This document shows positions 1 through 16,116 of a DNA stretch of 64,000 bases, one piece after another (within the stretch, counting starts at the first letter, position 1; each line of letters starts with the position of its first letter). The notes below the pieces were generated by a model, which was given only the letters and a program-made list of their open reading frames with translations, was not told where the DNA came from and did no database searches. The stretch lies in the NCBI RefSeq assembly GCF_000304355.2, contig NC_018227.2, positions 992,001-1,056,000 on the forward strand, in the 5' to 3' direction. The position numbers and the translations under genes were made by a program. The stretch comes from Methanoculleus bourgensis MS2 (GTDB lineage: Archaea; Halobacteriota; Methanomicrobia; Methanomicrobiales; Methanoculleaceae).

Positions 1-978
1 GAACCCCGCCTTCCACGCCTCCAGCGCGATGGAGAACGTCGCGATCTGGATGCACCGCGGGTCAAGTTCGAGCCCATGGAGGTTGTCCCTTACAATATCC
101 CTGATCGCGTCCTCGGTCTCCTCGCCGAGTTCCCTCCGCATAGCAAGCAGCATATGGAACGCCGCGACCAGGAAGTGCCCGCTCCCGCAGCAGGGGTCAA
201 GGATCTTCAACTCAGCCGGGCTCTCCGGCCAGGCGGAGAAATCGTGCTGCACTTGCTCCTTGTAGTAGACCCACTCCTCCCGAAGCGAGCTATCAGGATG
301 GAGGTGAAGCCACCAGGCGCCGAGCGTGTTCTGGAGCAGGAACTGCACCATATAGGGCTCGGTGAAGAGCTGGGTCACCGCACAGATATCATACCCTTCC
401 ACCTTCTTCCCCGATGCGTTCACCTCCTTCTTCTTCTCCGTCTGCCAGAACTGGTAGGTCCACCCAAGCGCATCCTCGGCGCGGAACGTCTCCTCAGGTA
501 TCCCCGCAAGGATCGCCTCGAGCGCGGCGGTATCCTCGGTCGCGTACCGAACTTGAGTGAGCGGGCTCTCCTGCCGGAAGATCCCCGGGAGCATCTTGGC
601 CGCGTAGCCCGCCGCGACCTCCCAGAGATCCCGCCCCTCCTCACGGGCGATCTCCTCACACTCAGCAAGAGTGACCGGCACTCCAAACTCCGGGTGGATC
701 AACAGGCGGTTCTCTGCCAGGAACCGTGCAAAGAGCATCCGGTGCCACTGCTCGTAGGCCACCGACCTGACAAGGTCATCAAACGACCCGAGCCTGCGGC
801 ATTCAGCCCGCAACCGCCTGCGGAGCTCCGCCTGCTCTGCGGTGAGGTATGCCGGCTTCCTCTCCTCCCGAACACCGAGCGCCGAAAGAGCATTCTTTGC
901 GCCGAGTTCGGCCTTCCTGCGAGCCTCCTGTACCGCTCCATCAAGGGCATTACGTTCTTCCCGGGTGAGCACCGTCAT
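1..978 (-). CDS. pglX: BREX DNA methyltransferase PglX (5' part, runs off window)
   Basis: The first 326 codons are visible and the frame is still open at the left edge. PglX is the adenine-specific methyltransferase that marks host DNA and is required for BREX phage defence. A class I SAM-binding and amino-methyltransferase motif (LDPCCGSGHFLV) lies at about residues 257-268. It is preceded by a helical region with RMLFARFLAENRL, as is usual for PglX. The ATG overlaps the brxC stop as ATGA, so the two are translationally coupled. The catalytic NPPY motif and target-recognition part lie outside the window. The neighbours brxC, brxB and brxA make the BREX assignment firm. Confidence 0.9.
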   Translation of the reverse strand, partial: MTVLTREERNALDGAVQEARRKAELGAKNALSALGVREERKPAYLTAEQAELRRRLRAECRRLGSFDDLVRSVAYEQWHRMLFARFLAENRLLIHPEFGVPVTLAECEEIAREEGRDLWEVAAGYAAKMLPGIFRQESPLTQVRYATEDTAALEAILAGIPEETFRAEDALGWTYQFWQTEKKKEVNASGKKVEGYDICAVTQLFTEPYMVQFLLQNTLGAWWLHLHPDSSLREEWVYYKEQVQHDFSAWPESPAELKILDPCCGSGHFLVAAFHMLLAMRRELGEETEDAIRDIVRDNLHGLELDPRCIQIATFSIALEAWKAGF

Positions 979-3900
979 CTGAGCACCACCGGGTTCCCCT
1001 TCTCAAGTTCGGCCACCGCCCGTCCGCGAACCTCCTCCAGGTACGCATCGAGGTCATCCCGGGTCTTCACCGTCACCGGCGCCCCGAGAGAGACGACCAC
1101 GGTCTCCGGTTCAAGGATCTTTGCCACCTTCACCCTGATCCGGTCAAGCGCCCCCCTGACCAGCAGAATCCGGCCGTCAAAAGACGTCAGCGGAGTCTTC
1201 CTGAGGTGCTCCACGATCTCGTCATCGGTCCCCGTCCTCAGCGGGAGAGGCTCGTTAAGGTAGTGTGCCCGGACCAGACTCGCCCGCTGCTTCTCATCCA
1301 GCCTGTGCCAGTCTGGGTCGGCATCCAGCGCGAAAAGCACCTCCTGTCGGGTCTCCTCCAACCGGACCGTCCCGGCCTTCAGGGACTCACGCAGCCCCCT
1401 CCGAAGATCAGCAAGCAGTGGTTCGACCGGGTCAGGATCATTGAGCAGGCTCCGGTTCTCACGGATCGCCGTCACCTCGGTCTTGATGTCCGGAAGGTCC
1501 AGAAACCCCTCAGCGTGCGAGATCAGGTGCTGCAGGGCATCCCAGGCAGGCACCCGCTCCTCGATCTTCGCTTTTACCGCTATCCACCGGTCAATATCCT
1601 GTTTGATATCGACACGCCGCGCAACCAGTTCCCGCACCAGCTGGTTGCCCGAGTATGCCCGGAGTTCAGCAAGGTACTGGGGTGACACCCGTGGCGGCAG
1701 CGGGGGATCTCCGCCGGTAGCCTTGACCAGGGAATGGAGGCAGTCAAGGAACTGCACCGCCTCTTCCACCTCACGTCCGGGCTCTGAAGGCAGATCAAAC
1801 TTCGTATAGAGTTCCCGGGCCGCCACCTTCTCCATGGGAGAGAGGACGATATTCTCCGCTTCAAACGTCGCCTTACCTATCTTCGTCTTATCCAGTTCGG
1901 GGGCAGAAACCGGCTTGTTATTGAACCGGGCCTTCAGGTGACCGGTGGCCACCAGCACCATCAACGCCCCGTCCACCGCGTCCCGCGGCCACCCAAACGG
2001 CGGCGCATCAAGAGCCTTTCGCACCTCCTTCCCGGTCTTTGGTGTGTTCAACCGTTTCAGGATCTCCTTGCAGACCGGATGCTCCTCAGGTTCGCGTTCA
2101 AACCCGATCTGTTTCATCGGCGTCTTGTCCCCGCCCTTCACCCTGTTGATGACCCGGTCCCATCCCACGGCATCAGCATCAGAGAACCGGTAGTACATCC
2201 GCTGGATCGCCCGGTCTGCCGCCTTCCGGACAGCACCCGCAAACGAATCATTCTCGACGAGGATCCCGCCACCGAGATACACCCTCGCGTGCTTGAAGAT
2301 CTCAGCTGCTATCGAATCGATCCGCTGCATATGCCCGCTCAGCTTCGCCTCGATGTTGGATCTCGCCTGGCCCCCCTCAGGCGTGGTCGGAGCCGGGCGG
2401 TCCCGTATCACGCCCTCGGCGGCCAGCAGACCGCCGATCTCATCTTTGAACGCATCATGGTCGATCCGTGGTAAAAAGACCATCACCATCGGGCTTTCGC
2501 TCCCTTCAGCGGCTGCCTCCGACTTGACAGCTCCTTCGGTAACCTCCCACTCGTGTCGTATCCATACCGGCACATTCGACCGGATCTCGGGTTTCTGTGA
2601 TGTAAAATAGGTTGATTCAATGCCACGCGGGGTTTTACTCTCGCCCTGCGCGAGCGTGAGCCTCTCAAGGTGCTTATTGGCGAAGGTTTTGAGGATCTCA
2701 TCGCGCCTGAACATGATACTGGTGTCGCTCGCCCTGGCGTCGGCCTTTCGTTTCTGGTAATCCCCTTCCCAGACACTCCCCTCCTCAGTCTGGATGCGAT
2801 ACTCATCCCCGACTTTTGCGATCACCCCGCGGTCATGGAGATCGTTGAGCAGGATCGGGACTTCTCGCCTGAGGTCTTCACTCCCAGCCACAAGATCCGT
2901 GACCAGGAGATCAGCGAGGGTATCCGGCGTAGCCCTAATCCCGAAAGATTCGTCCACCTGCTGGATCAGGAAAAGAAGCGCAGCTATCCGGGAACGAAGC
3001 TGTCCCTCTGGAGTCCCGTCATCCTCCTTGCTGATACTCTCGTAGATCTTCGGGGAGAGGATATTATTCCGTATCAGGTAGGTGCTCTGCTGAGTGAAGA
3101 TAAAGTCTGCCGGGATGACCGTTCCAACAGGGTCCGCCGCAAAGGTGCGTGCGCCGTCAAAGGTTAACCGCAACTGATTGCGCAACTGGGTGCTCATCCC
3201 TCCCCTGTCGACACTCTGCAGGATCCGCTCCCAGAACCGCTTCCTGGTAGGCAACAGGGGATAATCAAGCAGCAGAACCTCCTCATCCTCAACCTGTGAC
3301 GCCAGGTTCGAGCCATCAAGATGGCGGGAGATCTCACCACTGGCCAACTCCAGCACTTCCTCTAGCGGTTCTTTCATCGACTCCTTCTTCCTGAGGATGG
3401 TCTGGCGGAGCACCACATCGACATCCTTTGACTCGAGGGGAACATCTAGAGAAAATCTCCCCTGGAGGCGCTGTAATATCTTGTTGGCCTCCAACGCATC
3501 CTGCCCTGTTGCGACAAAGAGAATTTTTGAACTAAATCTTTTACTACAAGCCTCAACAACATCTTCGAAGGTATCCAATCCCTCTGACCCCTCACCAAGC
3601 GTCAGGTATGATTGGACTTCATCGAGAACAATCAGCACCAGCGGCATCTTCCCGGGCACGGTGCTCTTCATGGCAAAGATATCCTTGAGCATCTCAACCA
3701 TGAACGAATCCGTTATCTGGAAGTTTGTCTCAAATTGCCGTCGCAGATCTTCCCTGACCTGCTCTACAGTCATGCCCCGAAAATCAGGGTGAAGTTCTAT
3801 GAGGGCTTCTGTGAACTTTCGGGAGACAAAGGGGCGGTTCATATCTCTATCTCTCCCCTGCTCGCGGAGTTTCTCCCACATTGCATCGAGGATCCCGAAT

Positions 3901-4442
3901 TCTGCGAGCCAGAGATGAACACGTGCGATATCAATATCATCAGGGAGTCCTGCAGAACGGAGAACTACCTGAAGTACCGCAATCCGTGGATCACCAGAGC
4001 AACCGGAACGCAATTTCCCTGCTGCAGACCAGATACCTCCATGCCTCCGGCCTTCACTAGAGAGATTGCGAAGCGCATCCTTTACATCATCCGGAAGTTG
4101 ACAGATCTCCCGTGCGTTCGCCCCATCAGGGAAAACCAGGTCGCTCCAGAGAAATTCCAGCACGCGGACGAGGTGCGATTTCCCGGAACCAAAGAACCCG
4201 CTCACCCACACCGGGGGCTGCACCGACTTGTCAAGGTTATCGAGAAACGATTCGAGAATATTTTTCAATCCTCTGTGATATGATCCTTTACAGATAAAAT
4301 TTTCAAGTTCATAACGAGCGACGGCCCATTCTTGTTCCGTCGCGATCGGGCCGACTTCCGTTACACCATCGTTCGGGATGGTGTAACCGAGCGGATCCCG
4401 GTGGAAGACATCTTTATTTAAGATTACATCATGAGAAGCCAT
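975..4442 (-). CDS. brxC: BREX P-loop ATPase BrxC
   Basis: This 1,155-residue protein has the length and start typical of BrxC/PglY, the large ATPase of BREX phage-defence systems. A Walker A motif (GFFGSGKS) is at residues 82-89, right after the family's N-terminal block. A Walker B-like stretch (LVLIVLDEVQS) lies near residue 270. The rest is helical with no other recognisable domain. It sits 11 bp downstream of brxB and overlaps pglX by 4 bp. The reading frame is intact. BrxC is essential for defence in characterised type 1 systems (family knowledge); activity here is uncertain because brxA is broken. Confidence 0.93.
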   Translation of the reverse strand: MASHDVILNKDVFHRDPLGYTIPNDGVTEVGPIATEQEWAVARYELENFICKGSYHRGLKNILESFLDNLDKSVQPPVWVSGFFGSGKSHLVRVLEFLWSDLVFPDGANAREICQLPDDVKDALRNLSSEGRRHGGIWSAAGKLRSGCSGDPRIAVLQVVLRSAGLPDDIDIARVHLWLAEFGILDAMWEKLREQGRDRDMNRPFVSRKFTEALIELHPDFRGMTVEQVREDLRRQFETNFQITDSFMVEMLKDIFAMKSTVPGKMPLVLIVLDEVQSYLTLGEGSEGLDTFEDVVEACSKRFSSKILFVATGQDALEANKILQRLQGRFSLDVPLESKDVDVVLRQTILRKKESMKEPLEEVLELASGEISRHLDGSNLASQVEDEEVLLLDYPLLPTRKRFWERILQSVDRGGMSTQLRNQLRLTFDGARTFAADPVGTVIPADFIFTQQSTYLIRNNILSPKIYESISKEDDGTPEGQLRSRIAALLFLIQQVDESFGIRATPDTLADLLVTDLVAGSEDLRREVPILLNDLHDRGVIAKVGDEYRIQTEEGSVWEGDYQKRKADARASDTSIMFRRDEILKTFANKHLERLTLAQGESKTPRGIESTYFTSQKPEIRSNVPVWIRHEWEVTEGAVKSEAAAEGSESPMVMVFLPRIDHDAFKDEIGGLLAAEGVIRDRPAPTTPEGGQARSNIEAKLSGHMQRIDSIAAEIFKHARVYLGGGILVENDSFAGAVRKAADRAIQRMYYRFSDADAVGWDRVINRVKGGDKTPMKQIGFEREPEEHPVCKEILKRLNTPKTGKEVRKALDAPPFGWPRDAVDGALMVLVATGHLKARFNNKPVSAPELDKTKIGKATFEAENIVLSPMEKVAARELYTKFDLPSEPGREVEEAVQFLDCLHSLVKATGGDPPLPPRVSPQYLAELRAYSGNQLVRELVARRVDIKQDIDRWIAVKAKIEERVPAWDALQHLISHAEGFLDLPDIKTEVTAIRENRSLLNDPDPVEPLLADLRRGLRESLKAGTVRLEETRQEVLFALDADPDWHRLDEKQRASLVRAHYLNEPLPLRTGTDDEIVEHLRKTPLTSFDGRILLVRGALDRIRVKVAKILEPETVVVSLGAPVTVKTRDDLDAYLEEVRGRAVAELEKGNPVVLR

Positions 4443-4453
4443 ACTTACCGCTC

Positions 4454-4999
4454 CTACGCCTCAATAGGCGTTGCGAGGTAGCTCCATCCATCACGGGCTT
4501 TCAGCAGCCGATAATTGCGCCTATCCCGGTCCCCCGGAAAGAAGAACATCAGGCGACCGGGGATGTCCGTGGATCTGACCAGGCGGTCGATAACTGCACT
4601 TGCCCGGACGATTCCATAGAGGCTGCCAATCCCGATTACGGCGACCACGGTTGAATTTTCAGCAGATCTTATCTTCTCTGTAAGGTGATCTGCGAGGCGG
4701 GCAACAAAGTCATCAAGGTCGTACCTGAGCAGTGACGGATCCGTGAAGAAGTCCTCACGGTACTCGTTCCCTGCCAGCCAATTCTCAAACAGCCCGGTGA
4801 TATCGACCTCCTGCCAGGTGTGCCCGGACTGCACGGTAACTATCTTGAATTCGCTGAGACGAGCGCGTATGCGCCGCTCGTAGGAAGGATCGTAGACGCA
4901 GAACCAGACCTTTTCCTGTCCGGAGAGCATCTCATTCCATTGCAACGAAACTTGCGTCCTGTAAACTTCAAGAAGGTCGTCAATCTTACTCATAACCAT
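4454..4999 (-). CDS. brxB: BREX protein BrxB (DUF1788 family)
   Basis: This 181-residue protein matches the usual size and position of BrxB, between brxA and brxC. Visible family traits are the N-terminal helix (SKIDDLLEVYRTQVSLQWNE), a central FVYDP-like segment (VWFCVYDPSYERRIR) and a C-terminal strand-turn with PGRLMFFFPGDRDRRNYRLL. Its start overlaps the 3' end of brxA by 10 bp and it ends 11 bp before brxC, so it sits in one operon. Its biochemical role within BREX is not well defined. The frame is intact. Confidence 0.88.
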   Translation of the reverse strand: MVMSKIDDLLEVYRTQVSLQWNEMLSGQEKVWFCVYDPSYERRIRARLSEFKIVTVQSGHTWQEVDITGLFENWLAGNEYREDFFTDPSLLRYDLDDFVARLADHLTEKIRSAENSTVVAVIGIGSLYGIVRASAVIDRLVRSTDIPGRLMFFFPGDRDRRNYRLLKARDGWSYLATPIEA

Positions 5000-5464
5000 C
5001 GAGTCCCATCAGCAAAATCAGAGGAGAAGGAGACCTCAACGATCCCTCCTGCATCCTTATAGATCAGCCAGCCTTTCCTCATCGATTCGTCAACATACTC
5101 GCGGATTTCCGTGTTTGTCGCATCCAGCACATCTGCCCAGACGGTATGGAAGAGCAGGTTTCCCCGCACACCACAGAGATAACCAAGAAACAGGGCATAC
5201 GTCAGTGACGCCGGGCCTGCAGCTGCCTTTCTCCTGACCTTCCTGACTTTCCCCTCCAGGTGCCCGGATTGGGTCCAGGACGAGAGGAGATTCTCGCTTA
5301 TCGCCCTGACCGTCTTCGGACTGTACCTCTGAGGGAACTCTTTCTCGACCAGATCCATCAGCGGTTCTTTGCGAGCCTCCTCCCCCTTCTGTAACGAGAG
5401 TATGCACGGTGCGGATGTACGGAGGATGGGATCCCGGGCGAGGGCGCATTGGAGAGCAAGCATC
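4990..5464 (-). pseudogene. brxA: brxA, 3' fragment (downstream of IS insertion)
   Basis: This is the C-terminal part of BrxA (DUF1819), a small DNA-binding BREX protein. It carries the family features LMDLVEKEFPQRYSPKTVRAISENLLSSW and a WLIYKDAGG-like end. The N-terminal part lies on the other side of the IS element, at 6475-6739. A TTG at 5493 inside the IS end keeps the frame open, but a functional start there is doubtful. Removing the IS and one 8-bp duplicate (CAAGCATC) joins the two parts in frame, giving ...GERQMLALQCALARD... and about 243 residues. The insertion is therefore recent and the gene is otherwise undamaged. Confidence 0.85.
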
Positions 5465-6474
5465 GGCTCTGTTGAATTCCTCCCTGATAGCAACGATCTA
5501 GACTGCTTGACCTGCCTTCGTCAGGTTATGGAGAATCACCTTGCTCTTGATCTCCTTGACCTGGTACCAGTATTTTCTTGCCTTCAGTTCCTCTCCGAAC
5601 CTTCTTTTGAGGACTGAAAAGGCTGTTTCGACTTTGTTTCGTTCTCGGTACCGCTCCTGATCGAAGTCGGTGTACATCTCCTGTCGATAGATCCCCGATC
5701 GGACCCTTCCTTTCCAGGTTCGGACCGGGATCACCGAATCCGCACCGATCTCTTCCCGAATCTGGCGATGCAGTCGTTCAGCATCGTATCCTTTATCCAT
5801 GACATAGCACGCGGTTTTTCTGACTCTCTGACACTGTCTGAGCAGCGGTGTCGCATGGTTGACATCGTGTACGGGGTGTTGGGAGATCTTGACGCACAGG
5901 ATCACCTGCTTGTGGGTATCCACTGCGATCGAGGTCTTCAGGAAGTTCTTTCGTGTTTTTCCGGTTCGCCAGGAGTAATAGTGACTGGCGTAGGAACTGG
6001 TGAACCCGGATGCATCGATGGCGGTGATGGGTATTATCTCGCCCCAGGAATAAAAGAGTGTCAGAGTCTTCTTGAGCATTCGCGTGAAGAGGAGCGAAGG
6101 AATCCGGGTCATGAACTTATGAATCGTTGAATAGTGAGGCACCTGTTCCAGCTGGAGCAAGTCTTTAATCGGGTCCAGCAGATCGATGAGTTCCACCGTG
6201 TCCCGGTAGTCAGTACCAAGGGTCTCCCGCAAGAGCAGAAGTGTCATGAGTTGATGCTGAGTATACGTTCTCCGGGAGTATTTGCAGGAATAGAGCGGTA
6301 AATGGGAGGAACGGACGACCGCAAGGATCGCTTCGGTAAGGTTGATATATCTGTTCGTTGACACTATCTCTGCTCCTTGGCGTTGGTTTGGTCATTAACA
6401 CAAGGAGCAACAATTTTGATAGACTTTTCTCTTTAGGTGTGACCGAGCCTCGACAAGAGGGTTTCAACAGAGCC
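5465..6474. mobile_element. 1,010-bp IS5-like insertion sequence inside brxA
   Basis: Both boundaries can be read directly. Terminal inverted repeats begin GGCTCTGTTGAA at 5465 and at 6474 on the other strand, with 16 of 18 outer bases identical. The element is flanked by a perfect 8-bp direct repeat, CAAGCATC (5457-5464 and 6475-6482). It carries a single transposase gene on the minus strand, the same orientation as brxA. Intact ends, intact transposase and exact target duplication point to a recent insertion. No second copy is seen in the window. Confidence 0.93.
5498..6364 (-). CDS. IS5-family DDE transposase
   Basis: This 288-residue DDE transposase has the catalytic D in AIDASGFTS, the second D in [11 protein letters not shown] and the E in [17 protein letters not shown]. 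The last segment matches the Y-x2-R-x3-E-x6-K signature of IS4/IS5 transposases exactly. An N-terminal DUF772-like helical region ([14 protein letters not shown]) is also present. The frame is complete with no stops, so the element may be active. It fills nearly all of the IS between the inverted repeats. Confidence 0.92.
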
Positions 6475-6739
6475 CAAGCATCTGCCTCTCCCCGGCATCA
6501 AAATCCCACAGAAAGCGGAGTGCGCGGAATACAGAAACCTGGATATCAAGTCCGTATGATAGTTTCAGATGATAGAAACTCTTCTTTCTCCCTGAAACGC
6601 TGCTCTTCTGGAGTATGTTATCACTGTAGACACGCCTGTGGATATCGTCGAATGAACTGTTGTGTGGAGTAACTTTGAGGAGCAAAGAGAGCTCGTTAAA
6701 CATAATTGTGCGGCCGGCATGGGCACTCGCTGAATCCAT
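6475..6739 (-). pseudogene. brxA: brxA, 5' fragment (upstream of IS insertion)
   Basis: This is the N-terminal part of BrxA, ending ...FRALRFLWDFDAGERQM before the IS. Translation through the IS end adds LGLC and stops at 6464. The family-like core starts at MFNELSLLLK, and the ATG at 6739 (MDSASAHAGRTIMFNE) is the nearest good start. The frame also has an ATG at 6844 that would give an unusually long N-terminus. The upstream stretch contains a T-rich run (TTTTTATCTA near 6820) that might serve as the operon TATA element. Without BrxA the BREX operon may be impaired, and IS read-through may also affect brxB, brxC and pglX. Confidence 0.8.
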
Positions 6740-7303
6740 GAATCCAAGGTCTTCTGGGAAAGAATGGACTCCGGAAATCCTTCTGTTCACATGTTCGAAT
6801 CTTGTCCCCGGTAGATAAAAATCTATTGAAGTAGTTCCCTGCATGCATAGAGACCGTTCTCAAAAAATCGGTACCTGGTGGGATATGGAGCCTATCGGAG
6901 ACCAGATTGGGATAATCTCACTGGTGGCGGTCACGAATGTACCGAAAACTTCCCCCTATCAATAGGACTGGATTTTGTTGTGCGATGATCTACGCACTCA
7001 GTCCTTGGACTCTCCGGACGAGCTCTCATCTCATGCACCTTGACCGGGGTCAGCACCGATTTCAGGGAATGATAATCGCTGCCGCAGACCAACCCGATCC
7101 TCGGATCAATTATGGACTTGATACGCTTCGCTCCTTCACGTACGGGTTATTTTCCTCGAATCCTGGCCCTTAACGTTAGTGCGTATATGCCTCGTTCTCC
7201 CGCGAGACGATGCCTGAAGGGAAACTGTATCCGCCGTTCCGGATGTCAGGTGTGGCTTAACTCACCACGAACATGCGCAAAAGAGCTCTGGACCATGGGG
7301 CAT
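6740..7303. other. Intergenic stretch upstream of the BREX operon, no convincing gene
   Basis: Between the brxA start and the next gene there is no gene I can support. It must hold the BREX promoter on the minus strand. A stop-free minus-strand run of about 67 codons (about 7150-6945, containing KSIIDPRIGLVCGSDYHSLK) has no start codon or ribosome-binding site and matches nothing I recognise. It may be a fragment of a lost gene. Confidence 0.4.
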
Positions 7304-8257
7304 TCAATCATCGGATTCTTCTGATGGGCATACATCATCACCATCCTGCCCGTCACACTCAAAACCATCAATATCAGCCTCAAACAAGTCTATTTGTGTT
7401 GTATTCGCCCATTCCATTAGTTTTGATGATATCCGCTCAAGGGTCTTTGGATGTTCCCTGAACGTATCAGTGGGGGCGTATGTGCCATCATCTTTCAGCT
7501 CCAGATAACCTTTCAGATAATGGTGCATCAGGACCTTCATCTCTTTTTCCACCCTGGTCCTCATTGCGGTCTTCTTGCCTGCTCCAACACTGCCCGATAG
7601 CTTGTCCAGCCCCTCCTCTACCATCTGATGCGCTGTCTTTCCCTTGCTACCCGGCTGGAAGATCTGCATCACAATATCAACCAGCCCTCTCCGGACCTCG
7701 TGATTTTTGGACTCCGGCAGCAGGCTAATCGGGATAGTCGGCAGCTTGGTCAGCTCGGTTCCGGAGAAATCGCGAAGAGCAAGTTTGAGTTTCTCGTCTT
7801 CCAGAAGATCCATCTTTTTGACGACAACAGTATCCTTAACGATTATCTGGGTATGCTTGCCATCGTCGATCTCTGAGAGCCTGCTACAGATCGTGTCAGG
7901 AGCACTCTGGTGGACCTTCAAACCATACATGCCCAGGTTCCTCGGATCGATTTGCCTGTAAGAGTCCAGCTTATCCTCTTTGGAGCGATCATTGCAGGTC
8001 AGCTCAAGGACCAACCATCCGGAGGGGCCGCTTGCGACGATATCCGGGCTCCTCTCTTCCCCGGTTCTGCGCGTCGACAGGACCGTCTCGACACGATAGG
8101 CGTATCCGGCCTTCCGGAACGGTCCAACGAATCTCGGCCGATTTCGCTCATGAAAGAGTGCGATAGTGTTACGCCAGAGGACAATCCTTCTGTCCAGTTT
8201 AGCCAAAGACTTCCACTCCGTCAAAGAAGATAGAGGTCCTGCCGGCGTTATCCTCAC
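7304..8257 (-). CDS. Unrecognised 317-aa protein with a PD-(D/E)XK-like nuclease motif
   Basis: I do not recognise this family. Residues about 70-105 show a strand-turn-strand-helix pattern with SPDIVASG..GWLVLELTCN..KEDKLDSYRQI. This resembles the PD...ExK core of restriction-type nucleases, with T in place of the final K, followed by the helix carrying the conserved K and Y. The remainder is mixed alpha/beta, and the C-terminus is acidic (DGFECDGQDGDDVCPSEESDD). The annotated ATG overlaps the upstream gene by 59 bp; a TTG a few codons later is an alternative start. It forms a two-gene unit with the 345-aa protein, divergent from the phosphoesterase/ATPase pair. A nuclease role is inference. 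Confidence 0.6.
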   Translation of the reverse strand: MRITPAGPLSSLTEWKSLAKLDRRIVLWRNTIALFHERNRPRFVGPFRKAGYAYRVETVLSTRRTGEERSPDIVASGPSGWLVLELTCNDRSKEDKLDSYRQIDPRNLGMYGLKVHQSAPDTICSRLSEIDDGKHTQIIVKDTVVVKKMDLLEDEKLKLALRDFSGTELTKLPTIPISLLPESKNHEVRRGLVDIVMQIFQPGSKGKTAHQMVEEGLDKLSGSVGAGKKTAMRTRVEKEMKVLMHHYLKGYLELKDDGTYAPTDTFREHPKTLERISSKLMEWANTTQIDLFEADIDGFECDGQDGDDVCPSEESDD

Positions 8258-9236
8258 CCTGGATCGTTGCTATCCGGGGGGCAGCGTTGACACACCCTCT
8301 GCCTGGGACCGTCAGGTACGCATAGTCGGGCCCGACATCCAGGAAGACCCTATCCCAGGTGTGCAGGTCTACGCCCTTGAAACGCCTGAAATCGGGCTCT
8401 GTCTCGGTCTCGATGAGCCAGAGATTCATCCTTCCCCTGCCCATCGCTACGGTCTTAGAAAATGCTTCCAGGTCGATACTCTGAGTGAAGTTCAATTCAA
8501 AGGCGCCCAGACCATCATCCCTCAGGTTTGTTGCCTCATCCAGCGCATCCTCGTAGCGATTCGCCATATCAGAGATCGAGAGCATAACCTCGTCAATATC
8601 AATCGCCCTGTTGATGGTCGCCTTTCCATTGCTATACCACTCTACAGCCAGTGTCACCGAGTCTTCCTTAAGCTTCTGCCAGCGCGTACTGTATATTGCA
8701 AAATTCTCCTTCGCCGTATCCAGCACATCCGCTAGGCCGGGTATTTTCTCCGTCGCCCCATACCAGGCCTTCAGGCTGAAGCGCCCGGCCTCCTCATCCG
8801 ATGCCAACCCGTCGGAGAACTTCAGGCCAAGACCTCGTTGCTGCCATGCTTCATTACCGTCGTAATGAAGAAGGTGGTTTCTCGATAACCAGCACCTGTC
8901 AAGACCCTTTATGCACCTGACCCAGTTATCGGTGACCGCATCCGCTTCTGTCGCATCAAGTATGGTATACAGAATCCAGATCCGTTTGCGGGTTGCATCT
9001 AAAAAGAGGGTACTGGGCGACCGGCCTCCACGATTAATATACCAGCCGGCACCGCCGAGGCTGCTCCAGGATCCAAGAGGGCATTCAATCTCGTCGATCG
9101 GATAGTTAGTCTCCAGCAGGTAGGCTTTGAGCTGCGTGAGATGTGTCTGGCCATACTGCGCTAAAAGCGCCTCATTGTCCTCAAAACCAGCCTGTAACAT
9201 CTCTTTCAGGTTCTGGAGTGTCTGGATGCGTCCCAT
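8199..9236 (-). CDS. Unrecognised 345-aa protein, partner of the PD-(D/E)XK-like gene
   Basis: No family recognised. The protein is soluble, with no signal or membrane segments. It is Trp-rich, with motifs LGSWSSLGGAGWYINRGG near the N-terminus and DAVTDNWVRCIKGLDRCWLSRNHLLH around residue 110-140, then a helical middle and a beta-rich C-terminus. The gene overlaps the downstream 317-aa gene, so the two are probably made together. Its start is 184 bp from the oppositely oriented phosphoesterase start. The spacing and the nearby BREX operon suggest a defence-island gene. A substrate-sensing or DNA-binding role is speculative. Confidence 0.6.
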   Translation of the reverse strand: MGRIQTLQNLKEMLQAGFEDNEALLAQYGQTHLTQLKAYLLETNYPIDEIECPLGSWSSLGGAGWYINRGGRSPSTLFLDATRKRIWILYTILDATEADAVTDNWVRCIKGLDRCWLSRNHLLHYDGNEAWQQRGLGLKFSDGLASDEEAGRFSLKAWYGATEKIPGLADVLDTAKENFAIYSTRWQKLKEDSVTLAVEWYSNGKATINRAIDIDEVMLSISDMANRYEDALDEATNLRDDGLGAFELNFTQSIDLEAFSKTVAMGRGRMNLWLIETETEPDFRRFKGVDLHTWDRVFLDVGPDYAYLTVPGRGCVNAAPRIATIQGEDNAGRTSIFFDGVEVFG

Positions 9237-9304
9237 ATCGATTGTTCAACAGTACGAAGAACATAGTGAAATAGGTTTCTAATAGTTTCAACGGGGCCTC
9301 TTCC

Positions 9305-9321
9305 GGTCACCACATGTGACC
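9305..9321. promoter_or_regulatory. Palindrome GGTCAC-5-GTGACC in a divergent promoter region
   Basis: A perfect 6+6 inverted repeat with a 5-bp spacer lies near the middle of the 184-bp gap between two divergent gene pairs. Its position suits an operator controlling one or both transcripts. This is inference from symmetry and position; no repressor gene is adjacent. Confidence 0.4.
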
Positions 9322-9420
9322 CCCGGAGAAATTAGACGCATGATCCCCACCCCCCAAAACCCAAACCGGCGCCTTTAAGGCAACCCGCAGGGATATCAAC
9401 CTCTACCGAGAGGCGGTCAG

Positions 9421-10554
9421 ATGGTCAGGTTCCTGCATACAGCCGATTGGCAGATCGGCATGAAAGCGGCCCATGCCGGGGAAAAAGCGAAAGTTGTCAG
9501 GCAAAAGAGGTTTGATGCGGCCAGCCGTATCGTTGAACTCGCAGAAGAGAAGGACGTCGACTTTGTGATCCTCGCCGGCGACACGTTTGAAGATCACAAC
9601 GTGGGTGATGTCGCCGTGAAGCGGACGGTCGACATCCTCAACCGGCTCGGCCCAACCCCCGTCTATGTCCTGCCAGGCAACCATGACCCCATGGTGCCGG
9701 GCGGCATATGGGACCGGGACAGCTGGAAGCGGATCGACCCGCATGTTACCCTGCTTCGAGAGCAGCAGGAATACCGTCACAGTGACGACGTCGCCCTCTA
9801 CGCATGCCCGCTTGCCCAGAAACAGAGCAGCCTTGACCCAACCGCCCGGATCCCGCGCCGCGAGGACGGAGACAACCGGATCCGCATCGGCGTCGCGCAC
9901 GGATCCCTCAACATCCTTCCAGACCATGTCAACTTCCCCATAGCTGCAGATCGCCCGGAACAGAGCGGGCTTGACTATCTCGCGCTCGGGGACTGGCACA
10001 GCCGTGGTATTTATGGGCGAGCGGTATACCCGGGCACGATGGAGCCCACCAGTTTCAGCGAAAAGGACTCCGGCAACGTGCTCATCGTCGAGATCGAAGA
10101 AGCACATGCCGAACCGCAGATTGAGGTCTGCCCTGTCAACTCCCTGACATGGGTTGGTATCACACCGGAAATCTCTACGGTAGACGATGTCGAGATGCTC
10201 GATAGAACCATACGGGATCTGGGGCCGCTGGCGTCGGTTCTCCTCAAAATCTCGCCGGATATCAGTGGATGCACCGATAGCAGAGCCCTGCAGCGCCTTG
10301 AGACGCTCCGGGAGGAGGTCAGGGAGAGCGCCTTCTTCCTGGAGTGGATAGATCCCGTTCATCAGCCCGTCATCAGCGGAGGGGCGGACCGGATCCCGGA
10401 CGGGATACTCTACGAGGTCGATGAAGCCCTCGCCACCATCCTTGACGGCCGCATCCCTGAAGGCCCCGGGCATCAGTTCGCTGATCAGGATCCAGAGGTT
10501 GTCTTGGCAGCGCGATTGCTCCTGCACCGCCTTGCCGGGGTGCGGTCGGCATGA
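9421..10554 (+). CDS. DNA repair metallophosphoesterase (SbcD/YhaO/Mre11-like)
   Basis: This 377-residue calcineurin-like phosphoesterase is the nuclease half of a Mre11/Rad50-type pair. Motifs in order are FLHTADWQIG (motif I), FVILAGDTFEDHN (motif II), VLPGNHDP (motif III), IGVAHGS (motif IV) and YLALGDWHSRG (motif V). Motif I has D-W-Q where classical Mre11 has D-x-H, a variant I associate with SbcD-like subfamilies. The start follows a GAGAGGCGG ribosome-binding site. It overlaps the downstream ATPase by 4 bp (ATGA), so the two are coupled and probably form a complex. Likely acts as a Mn-dependent nuclease on DNA ends or structures. Confidence 0.88.
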   Translation: MVRFLHTADWQIGMKAAHAGEKAKVVRQKRFDAASRIVELAEEKDVDFVILAGDTFEDHNVGDVAVKRTVDILNRLGPTPVYVLPGNHDPMVPGGIWDRDSWKRIDPHVTLLREQQEYRHSDDVALYACPLAQKQSSLDPTARIPRREDGDNRIRIGVAHGSLNILPDHVNFPIAADRPEQSGLDYLALGDWHSRGIYGRAVYPGTMEPTSFSEKDSGNVLIVEIEEAHAEPQIEVCPVNSLTWVGITPEISTVDDVEMLDRTIRDLGPLASVLLKISPDISGCTDSRALQRLETLREEVRESAFFLEWIDPVHQPVISGGADRIPDGILYEVDEALATILDGRIPEGPGHQFADQDPEVVLAARLLLHRLAGVRSA

Positions 10555-13271
10555 TCGTCGAAGAGATCACGATCCGGAACTGGCGCAGTTACCGCGAGCC
10601 GCACACCTTCCGGTTCGATGAGGGGTTCAACCTCCTCGTCGGCCGCAACGAGGCCGGGAAATCGACCCTGTTTGAGGCGTTCACCCGGGTCCTCTTCGAC
10701 CGGCATACCTCAACAGCTGAAAAGATCCGGCGGATTCAACCGCTGGGAAGCTCGCTCGGTCCAGAGGCGACGATCTTCTTTCAGGCAAACGGCAATAGGT
10801 ACAAGGTCTGGAAGCGCTTCCTCAAGACACCCGCTTCCGAATTCTTCACTTGGCGGGGGGACCGCTGGGAGCTCGATCACGAGGGAGATGCGGCAGATAA
10901 CGCAGTGCGGGAGATCCTACGGGGGGAAACACCCCCGGGCGCGTCACAAACCAAGCACCGTGGGCTCTGCCAGGCGCTCTGGTACCTCCAGGATGATGCC
11001 CCTCTCCCAGAAGAGGCATGGGCAGAGGGAGTAAATGAAGGACTTTCGGGTATTGTCTCGCTGGCTGCCAAGTCCCAGGAAGAGGACCGGATACTCAAGA
11101 AGATTGAGAAAGTGTACAGTGCGATCTACACTCCAAAAAACGGTGAGGTCAGTTCCAAAAGCGATCTTGCTCTCCTCCAGAAGGAGATCCAGGATATCGA
11201 GGAAGAACTGCAGACCCTCCATGAGCGTGCCCGGCGCGTGGAAGCTCTCCGCCTGGAATTGGAGAGTTTTGCCGAACAGCAGCAAATGAAGGACGCTGTC
11301 CTCAAAGCCGCCCACACCGAGGTTGCCGACCTTAAACAGAAACTCAAAGAAGGGGCCGCCCTCGAGGAGGAGAAGAACCAGAAGGAAGAAACTCTTCGGC
11401 GGGTAAAGGAGACCCGGGAGAAACTCGCGGGAGACCTTGCGGCGATAGATAAGCGCATAATGCAGATCGATGAGTTAAACAGGGATCTCGAAGAGGAACA
11501 GCGTGAGGCAGACGTTCTCCAGGCTGATGCACGCGTTGAGCAGAGGACGGCTGATGCTCACCATAATACCTGGAAGACGGTCCATGAGCCCGAACTGCGG
11601 CAGGTGGAGAAGGAGCTCGGTATCCTCCAGGCAATAGAACGGATAAGGCGGTTCGAAGAGGAGGTGGCGAGAGTTCTGGAAGAGATCGGCCGTATCGAGA
11701 CCACTGAGACCAAATTCCGGAAACGGCAGCAAGAACTCTCCACAACCCCCCTCCCCAGGAAGAAAGACCTCAAAACATACCAGGATCAGAAACTGGAACT
11801 TGCCACCGTCAACGGCCAGATAGAACAGGCTGCCATTCGTATCGGGTTTGATCTACAGGTAGAGGACGTATCAATCACCGCAGAACCTGATGTGGAACGT
11901 CTTACCGAGGATGGCGAGTATCTGGTTCTCGGGCCGACGAAGTTTACGATCGGCGATCTCGGAATGATCACTGTCCGGGGTGGTGGTTCATCGCTTGGAG
12001 AACTGCAGGCGAAGGCAGAATCTCTCTCCACCGAAATTGCGTCAATCTTTGAACATTTTGGTGTGGCGGATGAGCAGGAACTCTCTGACCTCCAGCAGCG
12101 CCGCCAGGATCTTGAGCAGGAGATCAAGCGTCTCAAGAAGACCCTTGAAGACCTCACCTCCAAAAAAGGACTTGACCAACTCAAAGAAGATGTTGCCCGG
12201 ACCCGGCAGAAGATTACAGATGAGAGGAGCAAGCTCAGTGCAACCCCTCCCGGGTGGCAGGACCTTTCAGGCGATGTTATCAGGGAGATGTCTGAAGATC
12301 TCGCCCAGAAGAAAGAGGAACTCAATAAAAAGATCGAGCATGAGCAGGACAGAGAGGCTGAGGCCCGAACCGCTTTTGCCGAGGCATCCCGGAAAGCAGA
12401 GGAAGCATCCAGCCACCTGGTCGAACTCAAAACAGAGATTAGAGGGCTTAGGCGCGCGAACGATGAGACGCTGAAGTCATACAGTACATACGAGAACCTG
12501 CAAGCGGCGCTCGCGAAAGAGACTGAAGCGCTCAAGCAAGCAGAAGAGGATTTCGCTGGTCTCCTTACTGAGTACAGGATCCGGGTCGAAGAACCGAGAG
12601 CGCAGTACGATGAGGCTCTGGAAAGACTCAGGGGTCTCGAAGAGCAGATGCAATCCGTCGAGAGGGAGATCGTAGATAGAAATGCCCGGATCGAGGAGGC
12701 TGTATCCAAAGACTTCTACTCCAGCATCGGAGATCAGGAAGCATTACTCGATCTCAAGAGACGCAAACTCGATCAGGTCACCCGGCAGGCCGAAGCCGTA
12801 AAACTCCTGCGTGATATGGTGCAGGCATTCAAGAAAGAGCAGTCCACGGCACTCTCCGGCCCGGTGGCCGATCTCATGAACCGTTGGGTCGTGATGCTCA
12901 CCAGTGGGTCGTATGATTCGGTCCAGATGGATGAGAACCTCTTCCCGGTAGGGATCTTAAACCCACAGTATAACGAGGCATTACCCCTGGATAATCTGAG
13001 TTACGGAACCCGCGAACAGGTCATTGTCCTCCTGCGTCTTGCTATGGGCGTCCTCTTAAGCAACGACGAGCGCAACCTTGTCGTCATTGATGACCGGCTG
13101 GTGAACGCAGACCCGGTCCGGATGCGGCGTCTCTGCCAGATACTTGAGGAGGTGGCGACGAACCACTGCCAGGTCGTCGTCGCCACCTGCAACGACACAC
13201 CGTATGCCGGGATTCAGGGAGAGGTAATTTGGGTGCCGGGGGATGGAGAGGTAGCGGACCAGAGCAGCTAA
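10551..13271 (+). CDS. SMC/Rad50-like AAA ATPase (YhaN-type)
   Basis: This 906-residue ABC-type ATPase has a long central coiled coil (about residues 190-750, rich in E, K, Q and R). Walker A is GRNEAGKS at 31-38, the signature is LSYGTREQ at 816-823 and Walker B is VVIDD at 844-848. The LSxGTREQ signature is typical of YhaN-like proteins rather than canonical Rad50 (LSGG). There is no CxxC zinc hook in the coiled coil, which also argues against true Rad50. It is co-translated with the phosphoesterase. The pair is predicted to be an ATP-driven DNA-end-processing nuclease; whether it serves repair or defence is open. Confidence 0.88.
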   Translation: MIVEEITIRNWRSYREPHTFRFDEGFNLLVGRNEAGKSTLFEAFTRVLFDRHTSTAEKIRRIQPLGSSLGPEATIFFQANGNRYKVWKRFLKTPASEFFTWRGDRWELDHEGDAADNAVREILRGETPPGASQTKHRGLCQALWYLQDDAPLPEEAWAEGVNEGLSGIVSLAAKSQEEDRILKKIEKVYSAIYTPKNGEVSSKSDLALLQKEIQDIEEELQTLHERARRVEALRLELESFAEQQQMKDAVLKAAHTEVADLKQKLKEGAALEEEKNQKEETLRRVKETREKLAGDLAAIDKRIMQIDELNRDLEEEQREADVLQADARVEQRTADAHHNTWKTVHEPELRQVEKELGILQAIERIRRFEEEVARVLEEIGRIETTETKFRKRQQELSTTPLPRKKDLKTYQDQKLELATVNGQIEQAAIRIGFDLQVEDVSITAEPDVERLTEDGEYLVLGPTKFTIGDLGMITVRGGGSSLGELQAKAESLSTEIASIFEHFGVADEQELSDLQQRRQDLEQEIKRLKKTLEDLTSKKGLDQLKEDVARTRQKITDERSKLSATPPGWQDLSGDVIREMSEDLAQKKEELNKKIEHEQDREAEARTAFAEASRKAEEASSHLVELKTEIRGLRRANDETLKSYSTYENLQAALAKETEALKQAEEDFAGLLTEYRIRVEEPRAQYDEALERLRGLEEQMQSVEREIVDRNARIEEAVSKDFYSSIGDQEALLDLKRRKLDQVTRQAEAVKLLRDMVQAFKKEQSTALSGPVADLMNRWVVMLTSGSYDSVQMDENLFPVGILNPQYNEALPLDNLSYGTREQVIVLLRLAMGVLLSNDERNLVVIDDRLVNADPVRMRRLCQILEEVATNHCQVVVATCNDTPYAGIQGEVIWVPGDGEVADQSS

Positions 13272-13296: not shown

Positions 13297-16116
13297 TCAC
13301 CGCACCCCCTCCCGCCCGTTCCACTCCCGCACCAGCCGGGCGTAGCACTGATCGCAGATATTCGCCTGTGCTTCCCGCGACCGATACACCGCCTTCCCCG
13401 TCTTACAAACATCACACCGGCCGAGTTCCGTCTTCACCCGTTCGAACGTCCGGTGGTCGAGCACCCCCGGGAGCGGCTCTTGCAGCATCGCCCCTCCCTT
13501 TGCATCCACTTTCAGCACGTTGTAGCAGATGCTGTTCCTCAAAGGATGATTTATCTGCCCGGGATTCGGGTTTCCGCCCCTGGTCAGCGATATCGCAAGA
13601 TCGTTTCCGGCATTCCGGGTTTCGCATGCACCCGCACACTCACCCGCTCCAGAACCGGTGCCGGGGACTGTGTGCGCATTCTGCTGTACTTTAGTACTAA
13701 GAGAGAGATGCGTCTCTCTATCTGTACAAGTACTGGCAGATCCGGCGCCGCTCCCGGCCGTTTGTTCGTTGCACCCGGTGCTGGAATCCTGCGGTAAACC
13801 TGCTGCAATGTTGCAACTTGCAGTGCTCCCGCTCCGGTCTGGTGGGCATCGCGAGTTGCAAGGGCCGGGACCATCATCCCGGTCCCGGTCCCCGGCCTCA
13901 TCCAGCCAGACCCCGCCACCGTGAGCCCAGTGCTGGTAGACGGTGCGGTTGAAGGAGAAGAGGTGCTCCCGCCGCCGCACCGCGTATCCTTCCACGTCCT
14001 CGGTGACCATCGTATCAAAGAAACTGACCGCCGGGCACTTCTCCAGGAGGCCTGAGTAGATCGTGCCCCGGCTCGAGTAACCGTGGAGGATGCGATAGGT
14101 CTGGTGGTAGGAGAGCCCGAGCGCCTCCTGGAGCATCTTGATCGTGAACTGCTCCCAGCCCATCGTGGCCACCGTCGCAAGCGCCGCGGCCTCGTTCTTC
14201 GTCATCTTCGTCTCCTGCCCGCCGGCCTCGCCGTTGATCGCCGCATAGATCCGGGCTGCTGCCGCAAAATCATCCCGGTTTGCCCTGATGCCACCATCGT
14301 ACTCCTCCCTCTGGAAGCGGTGGAGGAGGGCGGAGGCCTTGATCAGGTCAAAGAGGATACCCGGGTTGCGGCGGTTTGTGGTTGCGGCGAAATGCACTCT
14401 CCGGGCGTACGGGATGGAGACGTGAAGGCGCTCCTCTTTGAGAACCCTCCAGACCGCCCGGCAGACAGGGAGGTCGGGATCCTCGCCGTCGCCGCCGTCC
14501 TCTCTGGCCTCACGCTCTTTCATGTGCTGAAGCACCCGCTCGTCCTGCTCGGCCGAGTCGTCGATCCAGACCGTGAGCATGCGGTTCGCCACCTGGTCGT
14601 CTCCGGCGTCCTCGACCTTCGCGAGCCACCAGACGCACCGCTCCGGGATGCGGCATACCTGGAGTTTGCGGTCCGGGGTGACCGTCTGGTGCTGGATGCC
14701 TGTCCGGAAGTTTGCGGTCGCGGCCTTCAGGACTTCCTGGAGGTCGTCGGAGAGCGAGACGTCGTCGAAGAGGAAGACTGTCCCCGGGCGGATGTTCTCG
14801 TTGTAGTAGAGCGCCTTATCCGAGACGGTGCCTGCGAGGCGGTACTCCTCCGGGACCTGTTGGAGCATCGTCGTGCAGGCGTGGCTCTTGCCCTTCCCGG
14901 AGTTGCCGGATATCGAGACGTGGAGGCCGTTTGTGTTCTCAACCGACTGCGAGGCGATCGACATGACGAGGCATTCCGCGACGGTCCGGTCGCCGACGTG
15001 CTCCTTGTTGAAGGTATCAAGGAGGAAGGTGAGCGGGTCGCCGTCACGGAGGATCGTTAAGGCCCGTTCGCGGTATTCATCCTCGGCGGGAGCGGGGGGA
15101 GGAGTTGGCTTCTCCTCCTGCTTCCGGGTCGGCTTCTTCTCATACATCGCCCGGAGTTCCGGCCAGCGTTGCGCCCCTCCGCCGCAACTTGCGTGATGGC
15201 AGCCGGCGAAGACGGCGCCGTTCGCAAACTGGATGGCAAACGCCCCGTCCCGGTGCGCCCCCGAGAACGGGCACTCCGCAAGAACGTAGAGGGTCCCGCC
15301 CTGCCAGGGCCTCGTCGACCGGACAGCGATGCCGTGCTCTGCGAGCCAGGAGGCGAGGTCGATGCTGCCGCCCCTCCTCCGCGGCGCCGGCTCATCCCGC
15401 GGGAGGAGCCCGGCGAGGTGCTGCAGTCGCTCCCGGGGAACGGTCTCCATCTCCGGTGGAATAGAGAGAACCTTCGCCCGCCGGTGGGGGCGCTCCGGGG
15501 TGGAATCCCCCTTTCTTGAGAGTGTCCCGTAGAGTTTCCAGATCCGGGCGGCGTTGTAGTTCGCGGTATCGACGGTGATCAGATCGTTTGAGAAGAGGGC
15601 GTCGAGGGTTGTAAGAACCCCTTTCACGACCTCAGTCGCGGCCTCGTCGTTCGGGAGGTCCACCCGGTACAACAGGTGCGCCCCATTCCCCGAGTCGGCC
15701 CGGACCGGCTCCCCGAACCCCTGCTCAGAAAGATACGCCGCGATCCGCCCCGCAGCGTCGAGCGCCGCGTCGTGCTCCGCGTCCGTCGACGAGACCCCGC
15801 TCGGCCGGACCGGGTCGATGTCGACCGGGAGCCAGCGGCGCCGGAGGATATCGGTATCCGCGGTCGTCGCATCCTTCCGGGAGAGCCGCATCTTGATCCG
15901 GTTCGCCCGCCGGGCGAGGAGCGCTGGGTTTGCGGCATTGAGCGTAGCGTAGATCCCCGCAACCGCCGGGTCGGCGTCGAGCGCCTCGACAGCCCGGGCG
16001 AGGGCCTCCTGGTCATCAAAGTAGCCCGAATGCGTCGCACCGTCGGCGAGCGCCCGGACCTCGACCACCCCGTCAGGGGCGAGGAGTCCCACCGCCCGGC
16101 GGATCTCTGCACTCAT
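13297..16116 (-). CDS. Primase-helicase replication protein of a mobile element
   Basis: This 939-residue protein carries several replication domains. Residues 100-240 look like an archaeo-eukaryotic primase core: a D-x-D (VDIDPVRP), then SGNGAHLLYR, then an Arg-containing RIWKLYGTLSRKG. A CHC2-like zinc motif follows near 290-320 (CPFSGAH..CHHASC). A P-loop (SGNSGKGKSH) lies near 410 with Walker B VFLFDDVS near 455. A winged-helix-like part (GLSYHQTYRILHGYSSRG) follows. The C-terminus has a low-complexity linker rich in C, S, T and G, then a zinc ribbon (CDVCKTGK..CDQCYARL). Such fusions replicate plasmids and viruses. It overlaps the upstream small gene by 4 bp. Confidence 0.75.
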   Translation of the reverse strand: MSAEIRRAVGLLAPDGVVEVRALADGATHSGYFDDQEALARAVEALDADPAVAGIYATLNAANPALLARRANRIKMRLSRKDATTADTDILRRRWLPVDIDPVRPSGVSSTDAEHDAALDAAGRIAAYLSEQGFGEPVRADSGNGAHLLYRVDLPNDEAATEVVKGVLTTLDALFSNDLITVDTANYNAARIWKLYGTLSRKGDSTPERPHRRAKVLSIPPEMETVPRERLQHLAGLLPRDEPAPRRRGGSIDLASWLAEHGIAVRSTRPWQGGTLYVLAECPFSGAHRDGAFAIQFANGAVFAGCHHASCGGGAQRWPELRAMYEKKPTRKQEEKPTPPPAPAEDEYRERALTILRDGDPLTFLLDTFNKEHVGDRTVAECLVMSIASQSVENTNGLHVSISGNSGKGKSHACTTMLQQVPEEYRLAGTVSDKALYYNENIRPGTVFLFDDVSLSDDLQEVLKAATANFRTGIQHQTVTPDRKLQVCRIPERCVWWLAKVEDAGDDQVANRMLTVWIDDSAEQDERVLQHMKEREAREDGGDGEDPDLPVCRAVWRVLKEERLHVSIPYARRVHFAATTNRRNPGILFDLIKASALLHRFQREEYDGGIRANRDDFAAAARIYAAINGEAGGQETKMTKNEAAALATVATMGWEQFTIKMLQEALGLSYHQTYRILHGYSSRGTIYSGLLEKCPAVSFFDTMVTEDVEGYAVRRREHLFSFNRTVYQHWAHGGGVWLDEAGDRDRDDGPGPCNSRCPPDRSGSTASCNIAAGLPQDSSTGCNEQTAGSGAGSASTCTDRETHLSLSTKVQQNAHTVPGTGSGAGECAGACETRNAGNDLAISLTRGGNPNPGQINHPLRNSICYNVLKVDAKGGAMLQEPLPGVLDHRTFERVKTELGRCDVCKTGKAVYRSREAQANICDQCYARLVREWNGREGVR

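Follow-up and report, generated by a model that had tools for sequence, protein, structure and literature searches.

Among described systems, the closest in architecture to the gene pair analysed here is EndoMS/NucS, a PD-(D/E)XK nuclease that is stimulated by PCNA or by the beta clamp via a C-terminal motif (PMC8228993). The PIP (PCNA-interacting protein) motif takes the form QXXhXXaa, and A. fulgidus PCNA has been described bound to the consensus peptide KTTQSTLDSFFK (PMC4929162). The pair, which we designate A-B, lies in Methanoculleus bourgensis MS2, in a stretch of 64,000 nucleotides (contig NC_018227.2; G000:C1:992001-1056000) taken from the 2.79-Mb genome and referred to below as the window. 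Gene A encodes an uncharacterised protein and gene B, directly downstream, a PD-(D/E)XK-type protein; genes C and D, which diverge from them, encode an SbcD/Mre11-like phosphoesterase and a Rad50/SbcC-like ATPase. A first-pass annotation of the window had proposed all four as a single system. We find instead that they are two unrelated pairs standing back to back, and suggest that A-B is most likely a clamp-directed nuclease-type system acting against replicating foreign or mobile DNA, a reading that we hold at about an even chance.

The likeness of B to EndoMS/NucS lies in the combination of a PD-(D/E)XK (RecB-like) core with a C-terminal PCNA/beta-clamp motif (PMC8228993; PMC4929162). EndoMS/NucS, however, consists of one housekeeping protein, in which an N-terminal domain binds DNA, whereas B shows no sequence similarity to it that we could detect, is paired with A, is patchily distributed and is often borne on plasmids or islands. 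Neither A nor B gives a Pfam or NCBIfam match to NucS.

Of 54 non-redundant loci, 51 have B immediately after A, and in 49 the two genes overlap; in the window, where the first-pass annotation had correctly placed two overlapping genes of no known function, the overlap is 59 nt. The three exceptions to this order are a locus in which B is broken (L022), one in which it is absent (L025) and a fragment at a contig end. L022 is one of two A-B copies in Methanoculleus sp. Afa-1, the other being L023, and combines an intact A with a B that contains stops and a frameshift. Close relatives of the pair are found in Methanoculleus, Methanoregula, Methanolinea, Methanoperedens, Methanophagales and other genomes of the ANME (anaerobic methanotrophic archaea) type, and distant pairs, at ~20-35% identity, on plasmids of Halobacterium hubeiense and in Methanocaldococcus jannaschii, Lysinibacillus irui and Metabacillus, with plasmid-borne members in the Bacillota also. 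The distribution is patchy: 15 of 232 genomes of the window's own order (Methanomicrobiales; some counts below were made on 231) and 21 of 391 sampled genomes of the haloarchaeal class encode the pair, or ~5-6% of those sampled in either group. Both genes are under purifying selection, with a ratio of non-synonymous to synonymous substitution (dN/dS) of ~0.05-0.10 for A and 0.10-0.29 for B.

No Pfam, NCBIfam or PADLOC profile assigns either protein, and the earlier failure to match the set of four to a named defence system held good for these two in the databases searched. The only matches are to two PHROGs of unknown function, A to phrog_22469 (E 1.5e-9) and a distant B to phrog_27163. These are the same protein families as A and B, but as sequence clusters they carry no function, and neither the phage records searched nor IMG/VR (three queries) yielded viral relatives of the pair. 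A-B is thus an uncharacterised, conserved gene pair that is undescribed in the libraries searched. In three haloarchaeal loci (L153, L154 and L155) A is preceded by a divergent gene of 510-534 aa, which in L153 encodes a pentapeptide-repeat protein; it is a possible third component in that subclade.

That A-B and C-D do not form one system is clear from their distribution. C-D is present in 9 of the 232 genomes of the order, as judged by searching with C, and A and C are found together in only three: that of the window (G000), G064 and G067. The last two carry the pairs on separate contigs amongst unrelated neighbours, and at no A-B or C-D locus other than the window do they adjoin. Independent occurrence of the pairs in most genomes, which the first-pass annotation had itself named as the outcome that would count against a four-gene system, is therefore what the survey shows. 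A single defence system with a shared divergent promoter and a palindromic operator would fit the divergent layout, the palindrome in the gap and the slight excess of genomes with both pairs (three against 0.58 expected, P 0.015; within the genus, P 0.049), but this co-occurrence can be explained by shared lineage. Moreover, what lies upstream of A in the window is similar in sequence to the region upstream of A in its relatives, and the same is true of C, the pattern that a back-to-back joining of two units would leave. As a matter of conserved gene order the one-system reading is already refuted, and we regard it as extremely improbable. The 184-bp gap and an imperfect 26-bp palindrome within it were indeed found as first described. 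From its sequence and position the palindrome is a possible operator; as a conserved one it was rejected, only L025 amongst the relatives having a loosely similar palindrome.

The suspicion of a PD-(D/E)XK-like motif in one of the two unknowns was well founded. An alignment of 35 B proteins shows the pattern E/D57 - P71-D72 - E/D85-x-K/T87, with the PD dipeptide present in nearly all of them. Fifteen of the 35, distant members included, carry the canonical PD...(E/D)xK with lysine (PDLILTSRGHNHSIVIDCKS and similar). Proteins of the methanogen/ANME clade, to which the window copy (PDIVAS...LELT) belongs, have ELT, EIT or DLT instead, with a clade-conserved lysine six residues further on, and a few other B proteins have E, R or S at the lysine position. 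The AlphaFold model of B has a pLDDT (predicted local distance difference test) score of 74, and the predicted secondary structure fits an alpha-beta core. Motif and predicted secondary structure together place the family in the PD-(D/E)XK superfamily, with the window copy as an ExT variant. When the model was compared with the PDB using Foldseek, Hjc was the best match (2wcw, E 0.035, probability 0.90), accompanied by NucS, with RecU and restriction enzymes lower; these fold matches are weak, none falling below E 0.001, and searching PDB sequences with a profile of B yielded no match of use. Hjc is, in addition, a stand-alone protein of ~120 aa, whereas B, at ~300 aa, is helical in its C-terminal half and comes with a partner gene almost everywhere. 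B is, on this sequence and model evidence, a PD-(D/E)XK-type protein. Because threonine replaces the catalytic lysine in the window's clade, catalytic competence, and with it cleavage by the window copy, is uncertain there.

The second feature of B lies at its C-terminus. Q288 is conserved in 33 of the 35 proteins and invariant in a set of 15 distant ones, and the pattern that it heads, Q..[LIM]..[FYW], occurs within the last 30 residues of 19 of the 35, compared with a mean of 0.78 and a maximum of 6 in 5000 shuffles, a test that overstates the number of independent events since the 35 proteins are related (identities down to ~20%). The same pattern is seen in none of 29 A tails and in 3 of 310 other windows of B. 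Examples from the tails include QRSLSSF, QSTLDDF-COOH (from an archaeon), QRTMADF-COOH, QTSLDDFE-COOH and QTSIWAFL. In bacteria, the clamp-binding pentapeptide is QL[SD]LF; the Lysinibacillus B ends in QLSLFDYENY, the QLSLF of which we take to be the bacterial form of the clamp-binding motif. A C-terminal motif of the NucS type is thus a trend of the B family, one that is degenerate in the window copy, and the tails suggest that B proteins bind the sliding clamp.

Protein A offers fewer clues. Twelve residues are invariant in 29 divergent A proteins (K37, E42, R85, D113, W116, T207, Y228, D290, H292, C315, N317 and R321), a largely polar set that suggests a catalytic or ligand-binding site. 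The model of A gave weak fold matches to TBP and RnlA in the PDB and to an RNase LS-like protein and viral TBPs in BFVD. A TBP-like fold was considered on the basis of Foldseek E values of 0.013-0.1 and a weak hidden Markov model match and then rejected, as the TBP match was lost with a larger alignment and the model is poor. Some RNase LS proteins are described as having a TBP-like domain (PMC3710099), and we keep the TBP/RnlA resemblance of the A model as a lead only. It is also the extent of the likeness to RnlAB (RNase LS): the model is of low confidence, no Pfam, NCBIfam or PADLOC match to the HEPN RNase domain of RnlA was found in A, and there is no evidence that B is RnlB-like.

The coordinates of these and neighbouring features are collected in Table 1. 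For B, a TTG at codon 12 lies nearer to the starts of its homologues than does the first GTG, as judged from the open reading frames (ORFs).

Table 1. Features of the window around the A-B and C-D pairs (positions are those of the window)
Feature	Position	Strand	Remarks
brxC	975-4442	-	PADLOC match
brxB	4454-4999	-	PADLOC match
brxA, C-terminal part	4990-5493	-	split from N-terminal part by insertion sequence
Insertion sequence in brxA	5465-6474		1010 bp; 23-nt terminal inverted repeats; 8-bp target duplication CAAGCATC; DDE_Tnp_1 transposase
brxA, N-terminal part	6464-6844	-	split from C-terminal part by insertion sequence
Gene B	7304-8257	-	317 aa counted from first GTG; PD-(D/E)XK-type protein
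B, clamp-motif position QIDLF, residues 288-292	7382-7396	-	C-terminus; degenerate copy
B, nuclease-core motif P71-D72 ... E85-L-T87 ... K93	7979-8047	-
Gene A	8199-9236	-	345 aa; uncharacterised; first gene of A-B pair
Imperfect 26-bp palindrome TCCGGTCACCACATGTGACCCCCGGA	9302-9327	.	within 184-bp A-C gap; candidate operator
Gene C	9421-10554	+	377 aa; calcineurin-like phosphoesterase, SbcD/Mre11-like; outside A-B module
Gene D	10551-13271	+	906 aa; Rad50/SbcC-like coiled-coil ATPase; outside A-B module
D, Walker A GRNEAGKS	10641-10664	+
D, signature LSYGTREQ, residues 816-823	12996-13019	+
939-aa protein	13297-16116		on the C-D side

The locus had been described as lying between a BREX (bacteriophage exclusion) system and a mobile-element module, and the BREX side of this stands: brxA, brxB and brxC lie on one flank, with pglX, pglZ and brxL following brxC beyond the window (L058). 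Since brxA is interrupted by an insertion sequence, this BREX copy may be inactive. The Pfam PglZ model misses the window's own PglZ, and PglZ prevalence was not used as a BREX baseline. The other flank carries less weight than first thought. The 939-aa protein there, whose sequence reads like that of a mobile-element replication protein of the primase/helicase type, is commonplace: its gene family is multi-copy, with three copies in this genome, and occurs in 148 of the 231 genomes. It lies near A-B in three loci and was considered as part of an element carrying the pair, a notion rejected on account of its abundance and copy number.

A defence-type setting, as first proposed, does hold for A-B. 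At a PADLOC threshold of 1e-15, 82 immediate neighbours of A-B matched 95 families, including DruE and helicases of the DrmD/HmaA/BrxH type, whilst 80 proteins from random places in the same genomes matched 3; these are counts of families rather than a per-protein union and the enrichment should be read qualitatively. BREX genes are found near A-B not only in the window but also in L025 (BrxC and BrxF) and L031 (PglZ), with BrxL remnants in L027 and L029. In L118, an HmaB-like methylase and a PLD/SNF2 helicase lie close by, in L149 a type I restriction-modification (RM)-like operon (from reading of the ORFs rather than from profiles), and in M. jannaschii HsdR lies upstream of the pair. In two Methanoculleus loci, L023 and L024, A-B stands head to head with a DruE-like helicase of 1786-1815 aa, and in L023 a DrmMI/type IIG-like methylase is also adjacent, a Druantia/DISARM-like combination (DISARM, defence island system associated with restriction-modification) in an archaeon.

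The C-D pair, whose genes overlap by 4 nt, is of a more familiar kind. C matches the Metallophos and SbcD/Mre11 profiles and D the AAA_15, SMC_N and Rad50 profiles of Pfam and NCBIfam, and the pairing of a phosphoesterase gene with that of a Rad50-type ATPase is that of SbcCD/Mre11-Rad50. C and D are alike in architecture and sequence to these proteins and to YhaO/YhaN, but all their scores lie far under the equivalog cut-offs (for D, 88 bits against 700); the YhaN profile AAA_27 (PF13514) gives 26.2 bits on D, against a gathering cut-off of 22, and AAA_15 and SMC_N score higher. D also differs in lacking the CxxC zinc hook and in having LSYGTxEQ, so that it has neither the hook nor the equivalog-level score of Rad50/SbcC proper. 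The features that had led D to be set apart from ordinary Rad50 are therefore real, but LSYGT[RHY]EQ is kept and CxxC absent in 6 of 6 full-length D orthologues, and they mark a group of orthologues rather than a new system. Against PADLOC, D gave LmuB at 54 bits across part of the coiled coil and the C-terminal part, and GajA and others mainly over the P-loop; assignment to Lamassu (LmuB), Gabija, Septu or another ATPase defence system was rejected, the matches being partial and LmuA, GajB and PtuB giving no match amongst the neighbour proteins scanned. In L054, two AddB/AddA-like genes come next after C-D, the first for a 1026-aa PDDEXK_1 protein and the second for a 1103-aa UvrD helicase that also carries PDDEXK_1, and L056 and L057 have proteins of similar size in the same positions. 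As this gene content resembles an SbcDC-AddBA-type end-processing cluster, the simplest reading of C-D is a mobile pair for DNA-end processing, of the known SbcDC/Mre11-Rad50 type. A decayed second D fragment (L039, G000:C1:2706029-2706309), containing stops and 63-75% identical to the C-terminal ATPase part, lies elsewhere in the same genome.

What, then, might A-B do? We propose that B is tethered to the sliding clamp by its PIP-like C-terminal peptide, the partner being PCNA in archaea and the beta clamp in Bacillota, and that A, perhaps in a complex with B, would recognise the target or license cleavage; in the window's ExT clade, A may itself carry the activity. In its fullest form, the proposal is that A-B is an undescribed, mainly archaeal defence system in which a clamp peptide matched to the host's PCNA or beta clamp would let B ride replication forks, A sensing or destroying invading DNA as it replicates, and this we offer only tentatively. 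Several observations weigh against a clamp-directed role. The window B has ELT in place of ExK and a tail, QIDLF, that is degenerate rather than a full PIP box; the shuffle test draws on related proteins and the bacterial clamp-motif case on two sequences; the fold of A is poorly defined, with a model pLDDT of 59.5 and no PDB match under E 0.01; and many copies in ANME and Methanoperedens genomes sit amid housekeeping genes, so that no single partner can be obligate for A-B.

These housekeeping neighbours, together with the NucS-like architecture (PMC8228993; PMC4929162) and the presence of NucS and Hjc amongst the best fold matches of B, would also suit a horizontally mobile module for DNA repair or for replication forks, comparable to EndoMS/NucS or Hjc and having no primary role in defence. 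We consider such a module rather unlikely, given how few genomes in each group carry the pair, its occurrence on plasmids, its enrichment beside defence genes and the variation in B's catalytic residues, but it remains a live alternative. Less probable again is that A-B serves as an accessory to or regulator of BREX, Druantia-like or DISARM-like systems. In the window the pair precedes brxA and shares its strand, and the DruE-like helicases and BrxL remnants noted above could be taken the same way, yet no partner is constant, neither A nor B has a PADLOC match as a BREX component, and most A-B loci have neither BREX nor another such system nearby. An overlapping two-gene operon found on plasmids and islands, with a first protein whose model weakly resembles RnlA/RNase LS and TBP folds, also invites comparison with toxin-antitoxin or addiction modules. 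Both proteins are large, however, no HEPN or other toxin domain was found, and A persists where B is broken (L022) or absent (L025), which speaks against A as a toxin held down by B; this we judge the more doubtful of the two, if not by much. A clamp-directed PD-(D/E)XK module with a conserved partner, spread alongside defence genes and mobile DNA and acting on replicating foreign or mobile DNA, remains the reading that we prefer. The pairing and gene order, the motifs, the constraint, the patchy distribution and the defence setting are seen in the sequences; clamp binding, cleavage, an A-B complex and a defence role are inferred from them.

Immunity in archaea is still poorly described: in close to a third of their genomes, no defence other than CRISPR and RM has been detected (PMC12988326). 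A-B is missed by PADLOC-DB 2.0.0 and is present in M. jannaschii and in the methanogen-order and haloarchaeal genomes counted above. The locus also carries a more general lesson, that unrelated modules within an island can pass for one system until gene order is compared across genomes. The proposed role yields a concrete and testable prediction, namely that B binds the sliding clamp. Were A-B indeed a defence that rides replication forks, it would be a rare example of one that reads the replisome itself.

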